From Melioribacter sp. (GTDB lineage: Bacteria > Bacteroidota > Ignavibacteria > Ignavibacteriales > Melioribacteraceae): 43,455 bases of DNA. The stretch spans positions 1 to 43,455 of the forward strand of contig PMDS01000084.1 of the NCBI GenBank assembly GCA_003155655.1, given 5' to 3'. This document shows, in pieces, positions 12,382 to 17,981 of this stretch (position 1 is the first letter of the stretch; each line of letters opens with the position of its first letter). Position numbers and translations under genes: made by a program. The notes below the pieces were generated by a model, which saw only the letters and a program-made list of their open reading frames with translations, did not search any database and had not been told where the DNA came from.

Positions 12382-13194
12382 TTAGTTTTCTTTTATTCCA
12401 ACTGCTTTGAAAAATGTATAACAGAAAACTCCGTCAGGTTCTGCAGTCCGGTATAGATCATTAATCCCTTTTTTAAATATTGAACCGTCAATAATGCCTT
12501 GTTTTACAGCTTTTTCACCAACGCCTTCAATCATTGCAGTAAATGTATTTTTTATAAATCCTTCTACAAGCTGCGGCTTTCCGGCGTCAACATAAACCAT
12601 ACGCGGTGAAACTGAAATACCCGAAAGCTCTACTGACTTAAACAATGGATATAATTCCCTTCCTATATTTGAATTGCCCCCGCTTTGTTTTTGGAGTTGA
12701 ATCTGGCAATCGATAGCCATGTGAGCATATTTACTATCGGGATAAAAAAAGGTTGAACCATGATCTCCCTCAATTGCTATCATTGTGCCACCTTGTTTCA
12801 ATACACGTTTTAATTCTTTAAGCGCTAGTACCGGATTGTGAAGATGTTCCAGCACAAAGCATACAATAACGCTGTCAAAAGTTTCTCCATTATACGGCAG
12901 ACGGTAAATATCCGCTTGTCTAAACTCAACATTTTTAATATCTAAAGATTTTATAAGCGCCTCAGCTTCGTTAATTGAAGTTGCGGATAAGTCGACTGAT
13001 ATAAAGTTTGAATCAAGATTTTTTGGAGCGATTATTTTAGTTTGTGCGCCAACTCAGCAGCCCGCTTCAAGAACAAGACTGCCCTTAGGGAATACAGTAT
13101 CGTTATGAATAATATCGTCTAATGTTTCAGCTTGATCTTTAAGCCTAAGAGCTTCTCTGTTTGAGTATCCGTGTACATATTCATTGTTTGTCAT
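12382..13194 (-). pseudogene. SAM-dependent methyltransferase interrupted by one in-frame TGA
   Basis: A class I methyltransferase frame runs from the ATG at 13194 (MTNNEYVHGYSNREALRL) to the stop at 12382, 270 codons, with a single TGA at codon 47 (13054-13056). The TGA replaces the Gly of SAM-binding motif I: the frame reads VLEAGC-stop-VGAQT, where the family has EAGCGVGAQT. GGA to TGA is one base change, and no other lesion is present; the later motifs (SVDLS, QADIYRLPY, EHLHNP) are intact. A truncated product from an internal ATG at 12855 would lack the SAM site. TGA is an ordinary stop elsewhere in the window, for example in hipT and the UbiB-like gene. Recent inactivation or a sequencing error are the likeliest causes. 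The substrate is unknown. Confidence 0.8.
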
Positions 13195-13422
13195 ATTGTT
13201 TAATCTTTTTCTGATTTAAATATTGTTAAATAAAATTCAAGATAGTTGTATTTACCCCGCTATTGGGATTTTTGTTCCTTCATTCCTTCGACAAACCAAT
13301 AGTTATACCCCATGAAGACTCTGACATAGGCAACGTTTTCAACTTGCCTGCCGCTAGGCATGGTTCTCAATTCTCCATTCTCAATTCTCAATTTTTGAAG
13401 GTTTATCCCCTTTGCACTTAAT

Positions 13423-14349
13423 TCAACCAAAAATCCGTTTTCTCTTTTCCAGCAGTTCAAAATATTTCTGCTTCATTTCAGCGGAGAGAAAACTTATTTC
13501 TATTAAATCATTCCATTTTTTAAATGAAGATATTATCTGGTCATAAACCTGCTGAATGCTTTTTTCCGGCAGCCCAAGCCTGTCATTTCCCCAATATTCA
13601 ATTAAATCTTTTTTTGTAAGATTATTTTTCTTTCCGTTTAACGGCAGGGCAATTTCTTCTTTCGGGTTTTTAATAGCTATAGTAGTGTTCAACAAATCGT
13701 AAGCGGGTGATAATTCCACTTTATCATCACGGTTTATAATAGAATAATTTTTCAGGTGCATATCCTCATTTCCCGTCAGGTAATTAAAGAGTGTAAGCCT
13801 GTAGAGTTTTAATTTTTCAAGCACTGGAAATGTGCAATACTTGTTTATTAGAACTGCTACCTTTTCCATACTGTAATCGTATTTAGTATTTCTGGATTTA
13901 CCGGCTAATTGCGCAAAGTCTTCAACGGCTCTTTTTTTTGTTTTTCCGCACCTGTCAAATCTTTTAATAAAGTATGTCAGCGCGCCTTCCCGTGAATACA
14001 CCATTCCGTGCAGCGGTACGTCAATGCCTGCAGTTTCCGCCATCCGCATTGTAAGATCCTCGTTTTCAGGCATCAGCGGAAATGCCGGGTTTTGAGGTTT
14101 TAATATGTAAGTGCCGAATTTGTCAACAATCTCAAATTTTCTTTCGGCAATGTTCAGTTTTGCGCTCAGTTTCGGTTGAACCCCTTGAATGGATAATTTA
14201 ATTGCCCGTGCGGCAGATTCCTGTAAAAGTTCTTCCTGCGTCAGTTCAAGATCATTCAGTTCTTTAAGTTTAGGCGATAATAACTTTAAGCCATTTGCAG
14301 AATATTTTTGACCGCCGCACAATTCATATGTTAACGGGCACCTATTCAT
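13423..14349 (-). CDS. hipT: HipT-type serine/threonine kinase toxin (HipA C-terminal domain)
   Basis: This 308-aa protein is the HipA kinase core without the N-terminal subdomain 1, which is encoded by the preceding gene. Visible kinase elements are a Gly-rich loop with Ser53-Ile-Gln-Gly56, Lys84 in YILKP for ATP binding, the catalytic GNEDMHLKN with Asp196 and Asn201, and the Mg-binding Asp218 in SPAYDLL. Known HipA/HipT toxins phosphorylate aminoacyl-tRNA synthetases and stop translation; the target here is unknown. The start overlaps the hipS stop by 4 nt (ATGA), so the two are translationally coupled. The split arrangement matches HipBST systems rather than two-gene HipBA. The 13195-13422 gap downstream holds a small hairpin (TGCCTGCCGCTAGGCA, 13345-13360) and no gene. 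Confidence 0.88.
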   Translation of the reverse strand: MNRCPLTYELCGGQKYSANGLKLLSPKLKELNDLELTQEELLQESAARAIKLSIQGVQPKLSAKLNIAERKFEIVDKFGTYILKPQNPAFPLMPENEDLTMRMAETAGIDVPLHGMVYSREGALTYFIKRFDRCGKTKKRAVEDFAQLAGKSRNTKYDYSMEKVAVLINKYCTFPVLEKLKLYRLTLFNYLTGNEDMHLKNYSIINRDDKVELSPAYDLLNTTIAIKNPKEEIALPLNGKKNNLTKKDLIEYWGNDRLGLPEKSIQQVYDQIISSFKKWNDLIEISFLSAEMKQKYFELLEKRKRIFG

Positions 14350-14657
14350 CCTTCTTCACCGGCGGTAACTGAGCCCACCATATCCTTGCCAACAATACTT
14401 AAATGAGTGAGAAAATCATCCCTGTCCGATTTTGTCTGCCGTAAAAGATTTTCCAGTTGGTTACCTTCAGGAAGAAGTCCGTCGAAGAACGGCGGGAACT
14501 CACTATATTCAAATTCCTTTTGTGAAACAGGCATTGTCTGCGAAATTGAAGGTCCGTTATAATTTTCATCATAAATAAATTTATACGATTTTCCTTTTTC
14601 AATCTCGTATAACCAGCCTGCAATCTTCCCAAAATTATAAATTTGTATTTTTCTCAT
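14346..14657 (-). CDS. hipS: HipS-type antitoxin (stand-alone HipA N-terminal subdomain)
   Basis: A 103-aa protein equal to the N-terminal subdomain of HipA (Couple_hipA/HipA_N), recognisable from the IYNFGKIAGWLYE start, the PFFDGLLPEG motif at about residues 54-63 and the IVGKDMVGSV end. In HipBST systems this small protein is the actual antitoxin that neutralises the kinase. It overlaps hipB by 23 nt at its start and hipT by 4 nt at its end, so expression of all three is tightly linked. A frameshift splitting one old hipA gene was considered, but the clean ATG, the ATGA junction and the known split family argue for a real separate gene. Confidence 0.87.
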   Translation of the reverse strand: MRKIQIYNFGKIAGWLYEIEKGKSYKFIYDENYNGPSISQTMPVSQKEFEYSEFPPFFDGLLPEGNQLENLLRQTKSDRDDFLTHLSIVGKDMVGSVTAGEEG

Positions 14658-14883
14658 CCGTTTCTCTTATCAAATTCATTAAAGGACTTTCAAAATTTAT
14701 TTTTACATTCAGAACATTAAGAACTTTTTGAATTGTATCATATTGAACGCTCGTCTTCCCTTTTTCAAGATTAAAAATCACAGTTTTGCCGACACCGGCA
14801 AGATCAGCCAATCCCTTTTGGGTCAGACCGCTCTTTTTTCTGTGAAATTTTATTATCTTCGAAATGTTCATTGTTCTAGTCAT
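14635..14883 (-). CDS. hipB: HipB-type XRE-family DNA-binding protein
   Basis: An 82-aa helix-turn-helix protein (XRE/Cro type, residues about 8-62, with the HRKKSGLTQKGLADLAGVGK helix pair). As the first gene of the hipB-hipS-hipT operon it most likely represses its own promoter and assists neutralisation. Two start codons are possible, ATG at 14883 and ATG at 14871; the second gives MNISKIIKFHRKK and lies closer to the usual HipB length. Neither has a clear ribosome-binding site. Four inverted repeats lie directly upstream, at 14888-15048, and are its natural candidate operators. Confidence 0.87.
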   Translation of the reverse strand: MTRTMNISKIIKFHRKKSGLTQKGLADLAGVGKTVIFNLEKGKTSVQYDTIQKVLNVLNVKINFESPLMNLIRETDEKNTNL

Positions 14884-14887
14884 ATTT

Positions 14888-15048
14888 TTACTGTTATAAC
14901 GGTAATTAATTGATATTTACCTGCTAAGTTAGCAAAAATAATTAAAAAGTCAAATTATTACTGCTTAAGCAGTAATAATTTGTAGTATTGGAATGAATCA
15001 GATTTATTTATTCGAATAGGGCTATTTTTTACTGCTAAAGCAGTAAAA
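14888..15048. promoter_or_regulatory. Cluster of four inverted repeats upstream of hipBST
   Basis: Three 18-bp inverted repeats share the pattern TTACTGYTNNARCRGTAA. They are TTACTGTTATAACGGTAA at 14888-14905, TTACTGCTTAAGCAGTAA at 14958-14975 and TTACTGCTAAAGCAGTAA at 15029-15046. The second is the core of a perfect 32-bp palindrome (14951-14982), and the third lies in 10-bp perfect arms at 15027-15048. Their centres are 70 and 71 bp apart. A fourth palindrome, TGCTAAGTTAGCA, lies at 14922-14934. This covers the hipB promoter region and suggests autoregulatory operators, but binding is inferred only. The surrounding gap, 14884-15207, has no supported gene. Confidence 0.6.
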
Positions 15049-15099
15049 TTACTCCACTTCCTCGCAATGTCTTTATGCAGGGATCTTTGTTGAGAGCTT

Positions 15100-15152
15100 G
15101 TCCCGACGTACTTTATCGAGGGCTGTGTCCCGACGTTCTCTGTCAGGGATGT
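15100..15152. repeat. Decayed 27-nt tandem repeat
   Basis: GTCCCGACGT occurs at 15100-15109 and again at 15127-15136, each followed by a similar CT-rich, GAGGG/CAGGG segment, giving two units of 27 nt. On the minus strand it reads as a fake repeat peptide (VGTQPSIKYVGT). No gene is supported over it. It resembles low-copy intergenic repeats rather than coding DNA. Confidence 0.5.
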
Positions 15153-15207
15153 ACCGTGGCAAACTAGAACATTCAACTTTTTAAAAATTCAGAAAAAAAC
15201 ATCTATA

Positions 15208-16449
15208 TTATTTTATCAAAACCATTTCCTTTGTTGAAATAAATTTTCCTGCTTGTAATCTGTAAAAATAAATACCGCCGGATAATTTACTTCCGTCAAA
15301 TTTTATAGAATAATTACCGGCTGTTTTCTCTTCATTAACTAGTGATGCAACTTCTCTTCCAAGCAAATCGTAAACTTTTAAACTCACATAACCCGAAGTC
15401 GGTAACTGATAGCTGATAACTGTTGAAGGATTAAAAGGGTTGGGGTAATTTTGATATAGAGAATAAAACGCGGGTATGTCAGAATCAGACGACGAAACAT
15501 TAACCGTGTTGGGTACTTCTATCTTAATATCCGGCGCAGAATTGTTATGTACACTGGGCTTTGATCTGAATATCTTGAACCACTTGCCTTGTAGGGAAGA
15601 CCAATTTGACAGTAAAGGAAATTTTCCGCTTTCACAGGCAATGCTATCCGCATCGCAATTTGAAGAACTTATCCACATTGATCTGAAAGCAGCAAGCGGA
15701 CGGTTTGAAGTAAAATTTGTCTTAATCTCAACTTTTGCTTCCTTTGTAGTTACAGAAGCATTTACTGATGCTGTGCTGCCATCATGGTACCAAATATTAA
15801 ATTTAACACCTGACAAATTAACTGTATTAAAGAGAACACTATCTATATCAGCGTATGGTCTGTTACAGGTTGAGGCTTTAATGCCTTCGGCGGGTCCAAT
15901 AATTACTGAACTTCCAAAACACGTTTTTATCAGACCCTGCGGAGGCTGAGGTATGAGCCGGATATAAGAATCGCAATAGAGTATTAAAAACTGCGGCCAC
16001 TCGTTTCTGTTTTCTATCTTTTTTGAGACCGCCAAATAATTCCCATAGGATGTTTTGCCGTTATTATCAATAACCTTCATTCTATTCGGTCTCCAGAAAT
16101 TATTCGTTGAATAAACCCAGATCACATTTATGCCGTCATCATCATATATTTTATTACTATCCGGGGTGAACGTATAATTTGAATCTTTACAAATAGTATT
16201 ACAATCAGAGCCCGAATTATCTGGCGGGCAATCTGAATCAGTAAAATTATATGGTGGATGGGTGGCAGTTATTATCAACGTAGAACCAACCGGTCCATAC
16301 ATTGGGATATTAACATTATCATGTTCTGCACAATTTGTTGTATACGATTTGTTTTCTATCCAGTATGTTTGTGTTTGTGCCGGGCTAAGCATTGGCATTA
16401 CAATAACAGGCAAGTATGCAATAAAGATTCCAAGAAAGCCGGTTTTCAT
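15208..16449 (-). CDS. Secreted protein with T9SS type A sorting domain
   Basis: A 413-aa exported protein of unrecognised main function. The frame also opens at a TTG at 16461, but GGAGGG followed by TTTT and ATG at 16449 marks the real start. The signal peptide ends near residue 25 (LSPAQT). The central region is beta-rich and Cys-containing, with no named domain recognised. Residues about 335-413 are a classic type IX secretion C-terminal domain: YQNYPNPFNPSTVISYQLP, then VYDLLGREVASLV, GGIYFYRL and STKEMVLIK. The protein should therefore cross the outer membrane and become surface-attached or released. It has no operon partner. The CTD wording is typical of Ignavibacteria. Confidence 0.85.
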   Translation of the reverse strand: MKTGFLGIFIAYLPVIVMPMLSPAQTQTYWIENKSYTTNCAEHDNVNIPMYGPVGSTLIITATHPPYNFTDSDCPPDNSGSDCNTICKDSNYTFTPDSNKIYDDDGINVIWVYSTNNFWRPNRMKVIDNNGKTSYGNYLAVSKKIENRNEWPQFLILYCDSYIRLIPQPPQGLIKTCFGSSVIIGPAEGIKASTCNRPYADIDSVLFNTVNLSGVKFNIWYHDGSTASVNASVTTKEAKVEIKTNFTSNRPLAAFRSMWISSSNCDADSIACESGKFPLLSNWSSLQGKWFKIFRSKPSVHNNSAPDIKIEVPNTVNVSSSDSDIPAFYSLYQNYPNPFNPSTVISYQLPTSGYVSLKVYDLLGREVASLVNEEKTAGNYSIKFDGSKLSGGIYFYRLQAGKFISTKEMVLIK

Positions 16450-16593
16450 AAAACCCTCCAAAAATCTATTTAAGAATTTTTAATATCTATATTAATCGTT
16501 CTGCTTTTCGGAATATTTTTTAGAGGTAGAGATATATTTCTCTTCCGTTTGAATAGGTAGAATTTAATTATTGAATTAGTAGACATGATTTTG

Positions 16594-16640
16594 CCCGCCA
16601 TGATTATTTGAAACTTAACAGAAATATGGAGTTAAATCAA
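16594..16640. repeat. Gene-bracketing repeat, copy 1
   Basis: A 47-nt unit starting CCCGCCA and ending TTAAATCAA, with its 29-nt core at 16612-16640. It lies about 34 nt past the stop of the two-TM gene. It matches copy 2 at 17078-17124 over the same 47 nt with about nine differences, and matches copy 3 at 18081-18109 over the core. Confidence 0.65.
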
Positions 16641-16673
16641 TGCCACCAAGAAATACAGTATGTGCTATGCTAT

Positions 16674-17036
16674 TCATTTATTAAAAACCGACAGTATTTT
16701 AAACAGCGTTTCCTTTTTTATATTTTCTATTTTCTGTTTAATATACAAGATAATTATTGACAGGAACACTATAAAACTTGTAATTGTACCCATTAAATTT
16801 TTTCTTAGAATTAATGGTCCTTTGTCGTACACAACCGAAAGCAGAAGACACGTAAATCCAATCAGTATTAGAACAATGGCTAATATCCTGTATTTTCTGG
16901 TTTTCTTGATTGCCGCAAGTTCTTTTTCAATTGACTCTTTATCAAGATCATGCGGAATCTTATTCTTAGCCATGTAGTTAAGGAAACCAAGTTCTGAGAG
17001 GATTTGATTTTTGATTTTGATTAAATTCTCATCCAT
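16674..17036 (-). CDS. Small membrane protein with two TM helices
   Basis: A 120-aa protein of unknown function. A charged N-terminal stretch (about 1-46, DLDKESIEKELAAIKKTRKYR) precedes two hydrophobic helices at about 49-69 (ILAIVLILIGFTCLLLSVVY) and 83-101. The short cytoplasmic tail is Lys-rich. The frame is intact, starts with ATG, and its amphipathic/TM composition is protein-like. It lies 84 nt downstream of the alpha/beta hydrolase on the same strand, with one repeat copy between them and one after it. No family was recognised. Confidence 0.62.
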   Translation of the reverse strand: MDENLIKIKNQILSELGFLNYMAKNKIPHDLDKESIEKELAAIKKTRKYRILAIVLILIGFTCLLLSVVYDKGPLILRKNLMGTITSFIVFLSIIILYIKQKIENIKKETLFKILSVFNK

Positions 17037-17077
17037 ATATCACCTATTTTAAAATAGTACAACTGCCCCGGAAACTA

Positions 17078-17124
17078 CCCGCCAATTTTATTTACAACTT
17101 AATGGAAATATGAATTTAAATCAA
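17078..17124. repeat. Gene-bracketing repeat, copy 2
   Basis: The 47-nt unit with core 17096-17124. Its right edge overlaps the TGA stop of the alpha/beta hydrolase (17121-17123), so it supplies the stop codon and lies directly at the 3' end of that gene. It starts CCCGCCA like copy 1. Confidence 0.65.
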
Positions 17125-17981
17125 TTAGTATTTCTAAACCCTATTTCCTCAAAAAAATTTATTATATCATCGATATAAAGATCAGGCTCATTAACAATAG
17201 CATGTCCGTTATCTTTGTAAGGTGGTTTTATAATTAATTTCCCCTTGCCGCCTGCTTTAATAAATGAATTAAACCATCTATTAACTGCATCCGGTGAATG
17301 ATTATCGTTTTCTGCATAAATCCATAATGCCGGCACCCGGCAAATTGTACCGAAATATTTAGCGGAATTTTCTAATGCGCTTTCAACCTCAAAAGAACGA
17401 AATGATTTACCTTTTGCCAGGCCGAAATTTGTTGCTCCGGAAATATTAACAATCCCGCGAATTCCATTTATATCTAATGTAGATGAAGCCAGTGAAACCC
17501 ACCCACCCTGAGATTGGCCAATAATGACAATGCGGTCTTTTGTAATTCCTGAATTAGTAATCATATAGTTAATTGCGCCTCTAATATCTTTGGCGCCTGC
17601 CAATCCCGACTCTTCCGGTGTATCGAGAAATTCACTATCAGGACCTTCAGAATTACCATAACCCCGCCGGACAAGCATCATAACAAGATAACCTCTTTCA
17701 GCCAATGCTTTACATAAACTCTGGTAATGGAATACCTCATGTTCATCAACCTTTGGCAATGGACCGTGTCTACCATGTGTCATGATTATTAAAGAATGTT
17801 GAGTTCTATTATCTAATGGTGTATAGATCATTGCTTCTAATCGATAACTCTTGTTATCAATTAAAGCGGAAAAATAAATGTGCTCCGTTTTAATTTGATA
17901 AGTATCTGCCCTTGTGTTAATTGGAATCAATCCCATCAAGGACAAATAGAAAATAAAATATTCAAAATGAAATAGTCTCAT
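17121..17981 (-). CDS. Alpha/beta hydrolase, exported or membrane-anchored
   Basis: A 286-aa serine hydrolase of the dienelactone hydrolase / acyl-peptidase-like group. A hydrophobic N-terminus (about 6-25) indicates export or anchoring. The oxyanion region is THGRHGP (68-74), the nucleophile elbow IGQSQGG puts Ser at 157, the acid is probably Asp226 (AENDNHSP), and the general base is His260 (DNGHAIV). The substrate cannot be predicted; ester, acyl or short peptide bonds are possible. It is the first gene ahead of the two-TM protein on the minus strand. The ATG at 17981 follows an AT-rich leader without a clear ribosome-binding site. Confidence 0.82.
   Translation of the reverse strand: MRLFHFEYFIFYLSLMGLIPINTRADTYQIKTEHIYFSALIDNKSYRLEAMIYTPLDNRTQHSLIIMTHGRHGPLPKVDEHEVFHYQSLCKALAERGYLVMMLVRRGYGNSEGPDSEFLDTPEESGLAGAKDIRGAINYMITNSGITKDRIVIIGQSQGGWVSLASSTLDINGIRGIVNISGATNFGLAKGKSFRSFEVESALENSAKYFGTICRVPALWIYAENDNHSPDAVNRWFNSFIKAGGKGKLIIKPPYKDNGHAIVNEPDLYIDDIINFFEEIGFRNTN

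Follow-up and report, generated by a model that had tools for sequence, protein, structure and literature searches.

The window, by which the whole analysed stretch of 43,455 nucleotides is meant, carries three overlapping minus-strand genes in the order hipB-hipS-hipT that HipBST systems require, and just upstream of hipB it carries three palindromes of the form TACYGYNNNNRCRGTA that are treated here as predicted operators (Table 1). The overlap between hipB and hipS amounts to 23 nt (14635-14657) and that between hipS and hipT to 4 nt (14346-14349), so that the three genes, their B-S-T order and their overlaps as given in the first-pass annotation are exact to the base in the coordinates of the open reading frames. 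A second candidate start of hipB is the ATG at 14871.

Table 1. Genes and predicted operators of the hipBST locus, with positions in the window
Feature	Position	Strand	Description	Domain match
hipT	13423..14349	minus	308 aa, HipA-like Ser/Thr kinase core, predicted toxin	HipA_C, E 1.5e-47
hipS	14346..14657	minus	103 aa, HipA N-subdomain-1 protein, predicted antitoxin	Couple_hipA, E 1e-18
hipB	14635..14883	minus	82 aa, ATG start, Cro/C1-type HTH, predicted autorepressor	HTH_3, E 2.9e-12
O1, predicted operator	14889..14904	.	TACTGTTATAACGGTA, fits TACYGYNNNNRCRGTA; 5 bp upstream of first hipB ATG	
O2, predicted operator	14959..14974	.	TACTGCTTAAGCAGTA, perfect palindrome; 70 bp from O1	
O3, predicted operator	15030..15045	.	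TACTGCTAAAGCAGTA; 71 bp from O2	

The profile search of the three proteins that had been proposed along with the gene calls was run and returned HipA_C, Couple_hipA and HTH_3, with matches far beyond chance. Couple_hipA is confined to HipS and HipA_C to HipT, which leaves HipT without the N-subdomain 1 of HipA. The couple_hipB model TIGR03070 matches HipB at E 6.8e-18 with 64.4 bits, under its cut-off of 71.65. A classical HipBA system has one fused HipA of about 440 aa, while the corresponding parts are found here in two ORFs of 308 and 103 aa. The HipBA system of E. coli K-12 shares the HipB HTH repressor and the presence of multiple operators with the window, but its HipA is fused and its four TATCCN8GGATA sites are spaced 28, 39 and 28 bp.

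Beside hipT, a methyltransferase frame on the minus strand (12382-13197) breaks off within its GC.VG motif at an in-frame TGA (13054-13056), which may be a nonsense mutation, an assembly error or the sign of a pseudogene. The ORF after this stop matches the end of Methyltransf_11 and gave no match at 1e-20 in 19 other relatives. A short dispersed repeat (13364-13394) adjoins hipT; the genome has 43 listed matches to parts of 13245-13425, the stretch itself counted, and most of these cover 13364-13394. The intergenic stretch upstream of the operator array (15060-15175) is matched in part at eight more places. For a neighbouring sugar-hydrolase gene, records named Melioribacter, Stygiobacter, Melioribacteraceae and Ignavibacteriales are among the relatives at 64-70% identity, which fits the earlier description of the genome as Ignavibacteria-like.

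The catalytic residues of the HipT kinase are intact. Its P-loop reads KLSIQGVQPK and includes Ser53, the motif GNEDMHLKN contains Asp196, His198 and Asn201, and SPAYDLLN contains Asp218. In the structure-library alignment, S54, K61, K85 and R154 of the Legionella toxin HipT(Lp) correspond to S53, K60, K84 and R153 in the window, and D197, H199, N202 and D219 correspond to D196, H198, N201 and D218; K61, K85, D197, H199, N202 and D219 are reported as essential, either in HipT(Lp) itself or at the equivalent position of HipT(Ec) (PMC10653801, PMC9325769). HipT(Lp) is described in the same two sources as a toxin without a known target that is phosphorylated on Ser54, with both S54A and S54D still toxic. 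Three basic residues, K40 among them, are reported to hold phospho-Ser54 (PMC9325769), and the position of K40 is taken by Glu39 in the window's HipT.

The loop of HipS reads PPFFDGLLPEGNQLE and has Asn66, not Trp, at the position of Trp65 in HipS(Ec). E58, P62, I65 and M66 of HipS(Lp) correspond to D59, P63, N66 and Q67; HipT Arg154 is kept as Arg153, and its HipS partner Glu58 is replaced by Asp59 (roles as described in PMC10653801 and PMC9325769). According to these sources, HipS(Lp) neutralises HipT, which HipB does not, and acts by displacing the P-loop, without the Trp65 of E. coli; that HipS and not HipB neutralises HipT is established for both Legionella and E. coli. As M66A weakens neutralisation by HipS(Lp) (PMC10653801) and the pocket residues differ in the window, strong neutralisation by the window's HipS is not assured.

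Relatives of the operon were placed in a tree of 66 kinases, with 39 from clade A, 13 from clade B, 12 from clade C and two HipA; the fragments L028, L032, L033, L036 and L041 were omitted, and the HipA rows lie on very long branches. Each group is separate, with support of 99/99 for A, 95/99 for B and 96/98 for C, and the window's kinase falls inside the 39-row group A, apart from both the fused HipA of its own genome (430 aa, with its own HTH gene before it) and the HipA of E. coli K-12. Joint support for A and B is weak (81/48). The two further split-kinase hipBST clades, B (L035, L037-L040, L053-L059, L061) and C (L043-L052, L060, L062), make up the other groups of this tree. Throughout the 64 tree loci hipS adjoins hipT, and in 63 of them HMMs also find hipB, with L011 cut by a contig end. 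For one clade B and one clade C kinase that were tried, the best solved chain was HipT(Lp), at 7e-65 and 3e-28, respectively.

The tree row closest to that of the window is L034 (70%), and Asn in the HipS loop occurs in these two only. Nearly throughout clade A the loop consists of PEG plus one of I, V, M, F, L, A, P or N; exceptions are L012, where the loop is changed, and L072 and L073, which have W. Clade B has PEGW at this place and clade C mostly (S/A/T)EG(E/D/V)N. P-loops are S(I/V)Q in most of clade A, S/T/A-(V/I/L)-T/P in clade B and SIS, SVS or SLS in clade C. All four clade B and C kinases whose sequences were read begin with several cysteines.

The B-S-T order recurs in relatives of the operon, and kinase matches at E <=1e-20 are present in 76 of 391 genomes of the window's class. 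A kinase with at least 50% identity (clade A) is present in 30 of the 391, counting the own genome and three partial genes. The operon is patchy: of 11 other genomes of the same genus, some of them incomplete, a single one (G393, 71%) has a kinase of this kind. Among 395 genomes drawn from the phylum, 17 match HipT at 1e-70, ten of which lie outside the class. Fourteen plasmid records match HipT at 1e-20, all below 60% identity, and on plasmid NZ_LR134418.1 the homologue is annotated as “lpg2370 family Dot/Icm T4SS effector”, a name which could spread by homology to other bacteria. HipT(Lp) is regarded as a bacterial toxin by Lin 2023 (PMC10653801), where the role of an injected effector is disputed, and homologues so far from Legionella fit this view.

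Comparison with solved structures places HipT closest to HipT(Lp) (8ezr, 7vkb), at about 2e-114 over residues 1-304 against 9e-26 for HipT(Ec), and HipS likewise closest to HipS(Lp), at 2.6e-24 against 5e-11 for HipS(Ec). Together with the domains, the synteny and the tree, these matches support the HipBST identity proposed in the first-pass annotation. The locus is very probably a toxin-antitoxin operon of the HipBST(Lp) rather than the E. coli subclade, the subclade being assigned by pairwise score only. With the Legionella system (Lpg2368-70) it shares the B-S-T order with overlapping ORFs, the HipT and HipS sequences, the single-serine P-loop S(V/I)Q (SIQG in the window), the absence of Trp65 in HipS and three operator sites about 71 bp apart, which are predicted sites in the window. 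It differs in the HipS pocket, with Asn66/Gln67 for Ile65/Met66, in having Glu39 for Lys40 in HipT, in a hipB-hipS overlap of 23 nt compared to 4 nt, and in the position of O1, which is 24 nt from hipB in Legionella and 5 bp from the first or 17 bp from the second ATG in the window. HipBST(Lp) homologues are already reported to be widely distributed, particularly in the FCB superphylum (Lin 2023, PMC10653801), and finding HipBST in such a genome is therefore not new.

Several other readings of the operon have to be considered. The system of E. coli O127:H6 (PDB 7ab3-7ab5) has the same tripartite gene order, the same domains and HipS as the antitoxin, as predicted for the window, but in that system HipS acts via Trp65, the P-loop contains two serines and HipT phosphorylates TrpS. 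An operon of this kind is very improbable here given the Asn at the Trp65 position, the one serine of SIQG and a similarity to HipT(Ec) (E 9e-26 only) that is far weaker than that to HipT(Lp), and the E. coli-type mechanism was rejected on these three grounds; in addition, extra TrpS or GltX is reported not to have relieved the toxicity of HipT(Lp), and the HipBST(Lp) operators are reported to be absent from the HipBST(Ec) promoter (PMC10653801). It would also be conceivable that a classical hipBA had its hipA split recently by a frameshift or stop, leaving two halves of a broken toxin, as HipS and HipT do match the N-terminal part and the core of HipA and their reading frames overlap by 4 nt only. 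This can be dismissed with near certainty: no catalytic residue is damaged, a fused HipA is encoded elsewhere in the genome, the tree groups the split kinases together and apart from fused HipA, and relatives throughout the phylum are split in the same way. A kinase inside classical HipA and a recent frameshift, which the first-pass annotation had named among the results fatal to its proposal, were both looked for and not found, with the kinase in the 39-row group (99/99) and the split common to relatives in other classes of the phylum. The recent-frameshift and fused-HipA readings were rejected on tree and synteny, and the split between HipS and HipT is old.

A further possibility concerns the role of the operon, which could be intact and still serve chiefly as a phage-defence or regulatory module instead of an addiction module. 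This is in line with the view that curbing phage infection may be a major function of toxin-antitoxin systems (PMC8262856) and with a weak match of the kinase to the PADLOC candidate model PDC-M03A (E 6e-9, residues 153-218), but the three neighbouring proteins (15208-17981) are without a PADLOC match and the PADLOC matches of HipB are generic HTH proteins. Such a role is unlikely. No HipT match at 1e-5 was found in 50,697 phage records, an absence that says nothing on defence. The operon itself is an intact, ordinary and well-assigned member of the HipBST(Lp) subclade, the functionality of which is suggested by homology and intact residues.

The operator array (14889-15045) is new relative to the first-pass annotation and is the more interesting part of the operon. 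Its start-to-start spacings of 70 and 71 bp reproduce the even spacing of the Legionella promoter, for which three HipB-bound 18-nt operators with 53-bp gaps are reported (Lin 2023, PMC10653801), equivalent to 71 bp from start to start. The exact motif occurs at six places in the own genome, which are the three sites here and three single ones inside long ORFs. Promoter-like matches in 13200-15300 are no more numerous than in shuffles (6 vs 6.2), and a terminator-like match at 14951-14982 was rejected as being the O2 palindrome itself. Among openly licensed papers, and others by title or the start of the abstract, arrays of HipBST operators are described by Lin 2023 alone; in PMC6581861, PMC8262856 and PMC9325769 the word “operator” is used in general, about hipBA or in reference lists.

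The array is conserved throughout nearly all of clade A. This clade has 31 loci in the class (L001, L005-L034), of which 28 were scanned. Three were excluded: in L011 and L030 the contig stops within the upstream region or directly before it, and L033 is a fragment with a stop. The 28 loci contain 90, 82 and 50 sites fitting TACYGYNNNNRCRGTA at >=10, >=11 and 12 of 12 positions, compared to shuffle means of 2.64, 0.18 and 0.0. Another 11 loci come from other classes; hipB was read in nine of these, eight with three sites 70-73 bp apart and one (L064) with two sites 61 bp apart. The remaining two, L072 and L073, in which hipB was found by HMM, were scanned whole and have no operator array. This pair, which comes from another class and has Trp in the HipS loop, joins clade A at its unresolved base. 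In total, 37 of 39 scanned loci have at least two sites (>=10/12 positions) and 34 have three or more, while L017, L029 and L064 have two only. A site lies 68-75 bp from O1 in 35 of the 37 loci, and a third lies 68-75 bp further in 29 of them. Variant spacings are 31, 40/41 and 61 bp, of which 31 and 40/41 represent few independent events, as they occur mostly in one branch of related loci. The operator columns carry information, whereas the spacers carry little, with no strongly conserved column between operators beyond a preference for A/T.

A total of 29 other Hip loci (102,418 bases) contain no exact and two near matches to the clade A motif, and the two-site pattern alone (gap 54-57) is found in 17 of 382 genomes of the class, 15 of which are genomes with a clade A HipT. 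Of the other two, G134 has its hipB cut by a contig end and G267 (91% complete) has an orphan array of three exact sites with spacings of 41 and 31 (L097:3618-3705), which precedes a gene for a factor of the sigma-70 type (regions 2 and 4 by Pfam). HipT has no match at 1e-20 in G267, where the best HipB-like match is at E 2e-5; the array may be what is left of an operon since lost, or else a control region that was captured.

Clades B and C, which belong to the same class, share with clade A the B-S-T order and, in most loci, evenly spaced palindromes upstream of hipB, but differ in their operator sequences, which are unrelated to that of clade A, in their HipS loops and P-loops, and in their spacings, which are mostly 40-41 bp in B and 60-61 bp in C. 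The clade B motif ATACCYNNNNRGGTAT, settled from an initial 13 loci ahead of any look at the rest, has 37 sites (>=10/12) in these 13 and 37 in 15 held-out loci, with shuffle means of 0.74 and 0.80. At least two sites are present in 13 of 13 first and 13 of 15 further loci with sufficient upstream DNA, with none in L126 and one in L114, which is short; L121, with 50 bp upstream, and L129, where hipB was not found, were excluded. Adjacent spacings are 39-41 in 43 of 47 cases, 81 in three and 94 in one. The clade C motif RTGYANNNNNNTRCAY has 28 sites (>=9/10) in a first set of 12 loci and 21 in a second set of 12, with a shuffle mean of 1.8 each, the second set not being strictly held out, as its results were known before the final motif was written. 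At least two sites are present in ten of 12 loci in each set, with none in L049, L050, L128 and L139; L128 and L130 had been reassigned from B to C on the catalytic motif. Spacings in clade C are 60-62 in 23 of 29 cases, and 10, 26, 34, 39, 40 and 92 once each, and in L134 the only pair is an overlapping one at 10 bp. At 11/12, neither the A nor the B motif occurs in the other clades, and the looser C motif has 3 sites in A and 6 in B versus 49 in C.

A preferred spacing within each of clades A, B and C is well supported, and the data are suggestive of all spacings being whole helical turns of about 10.2 bp. Within 1.5 bp of a multiple of 10.2 lie 63 of 68 spacings in A, 45 of 47 in B and 26 of 29 in C, where two A spacings of 141 are omitted and C includes the overlapping pair at 10; the same test at 10.5 bp leaves only 12 (A), 23 (B) and 2 (C) in phase. 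AT-rich DNA can have a helical repeat shorter than 10.5 bp. Five single exceptions exist, namely 38 (L014), 79 (L018), 94 (L123) and both 26 and 34 (L051), where one weak extra site splits a 60. For the 14 distinct spacing states with these exceptions the phase test gives a P of 0.32, without them 0 of 5000 random sets reach the value, and the three modal spacings alone give 0.06, all P values to be read with the related loci not being independent. In a motif-free search, 20 of 37 A, 18 of 27 B and 12 of 24 C loci had a pair that surpassed 20 shuffles, and 18, 14 and 12 of these pairs, respectively, are in phase. Of 19 fused HipBA control loci (L141-L159), only 7 could be parsed; 5 of them have such a pair, which is in phase in 3, and phased pairs therefore cannot be called special to split kinases.

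By analogy with the Legionella structures, HipS would bind HipT and push out its P-loop so that ATP cannot bind, with no bulky Trp at position 65 taking part. HipB would not neutralise the toxin but would bind the three upstream palindromes alone, with HipT or with HipS-HipT, and thereby repress the operon. The even spacing of 70/71 bp suggests that neighbouring HipB-HipT-HipS complexes may sit on one side of the DNA and touch, which would couple repression to the amounts of all three proteins. A contact along one DNA face would also explain why the spacing is fixed while the spacer sequence is free. Toxicity, rescue by HipS, binding of the three operators by HipB and displacement of the P-loop are established for Legionella by others; for the window we infer both the activity of its own proteins and the contact between neighbouring complexes. 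HipB-DNA and HipT-HipB-DNA complexes are reported by Lin 2023 (PMC10653801), along with shifts consistent with HipS-HipT-HipB-DNA, the E. coli HipBST heterohexamer is reported to partly dimerise in solution (PMC10627512), and HipA dimerisation within operator complexes is mentioned for HipBA (PMC7029023). The E. coli hipBST promoter is repressed by HipB. Lin 2023 (PMC10653801) stresses a possible intermediate occupancy of the three sites instead of contacts. Promoter geometry could alternatively set the spacing, but the O2-O3 distance is just as constant as that of O1-O2, and a single promoter close to hipB would not call for this.

In a more general model, split-kinase HipBST operons as a whole have HipB operator arrays at whole turns, seven (70-72 bp) in clade A, four (40-41 bp) in clade B and six (60-61 bp) in clade C, with the geometry of the assembly and not the DNA sequence being conserved, and with repression that is cooperative and sensitive to the ratio of toxin to antitoxin. 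This generalisation is tentative, with the chances slightly against it. If true, what is conserved would be the arrangement of HipB dimers, loaded with HipT and HipS, in contact on a single face of the DNA. The operon in the window adds an intact member of the less-studied HipBST(Lp) subclade from a lineage far from Legionella, and its spacing array may provide a simple handle on how such units shut themselves off.
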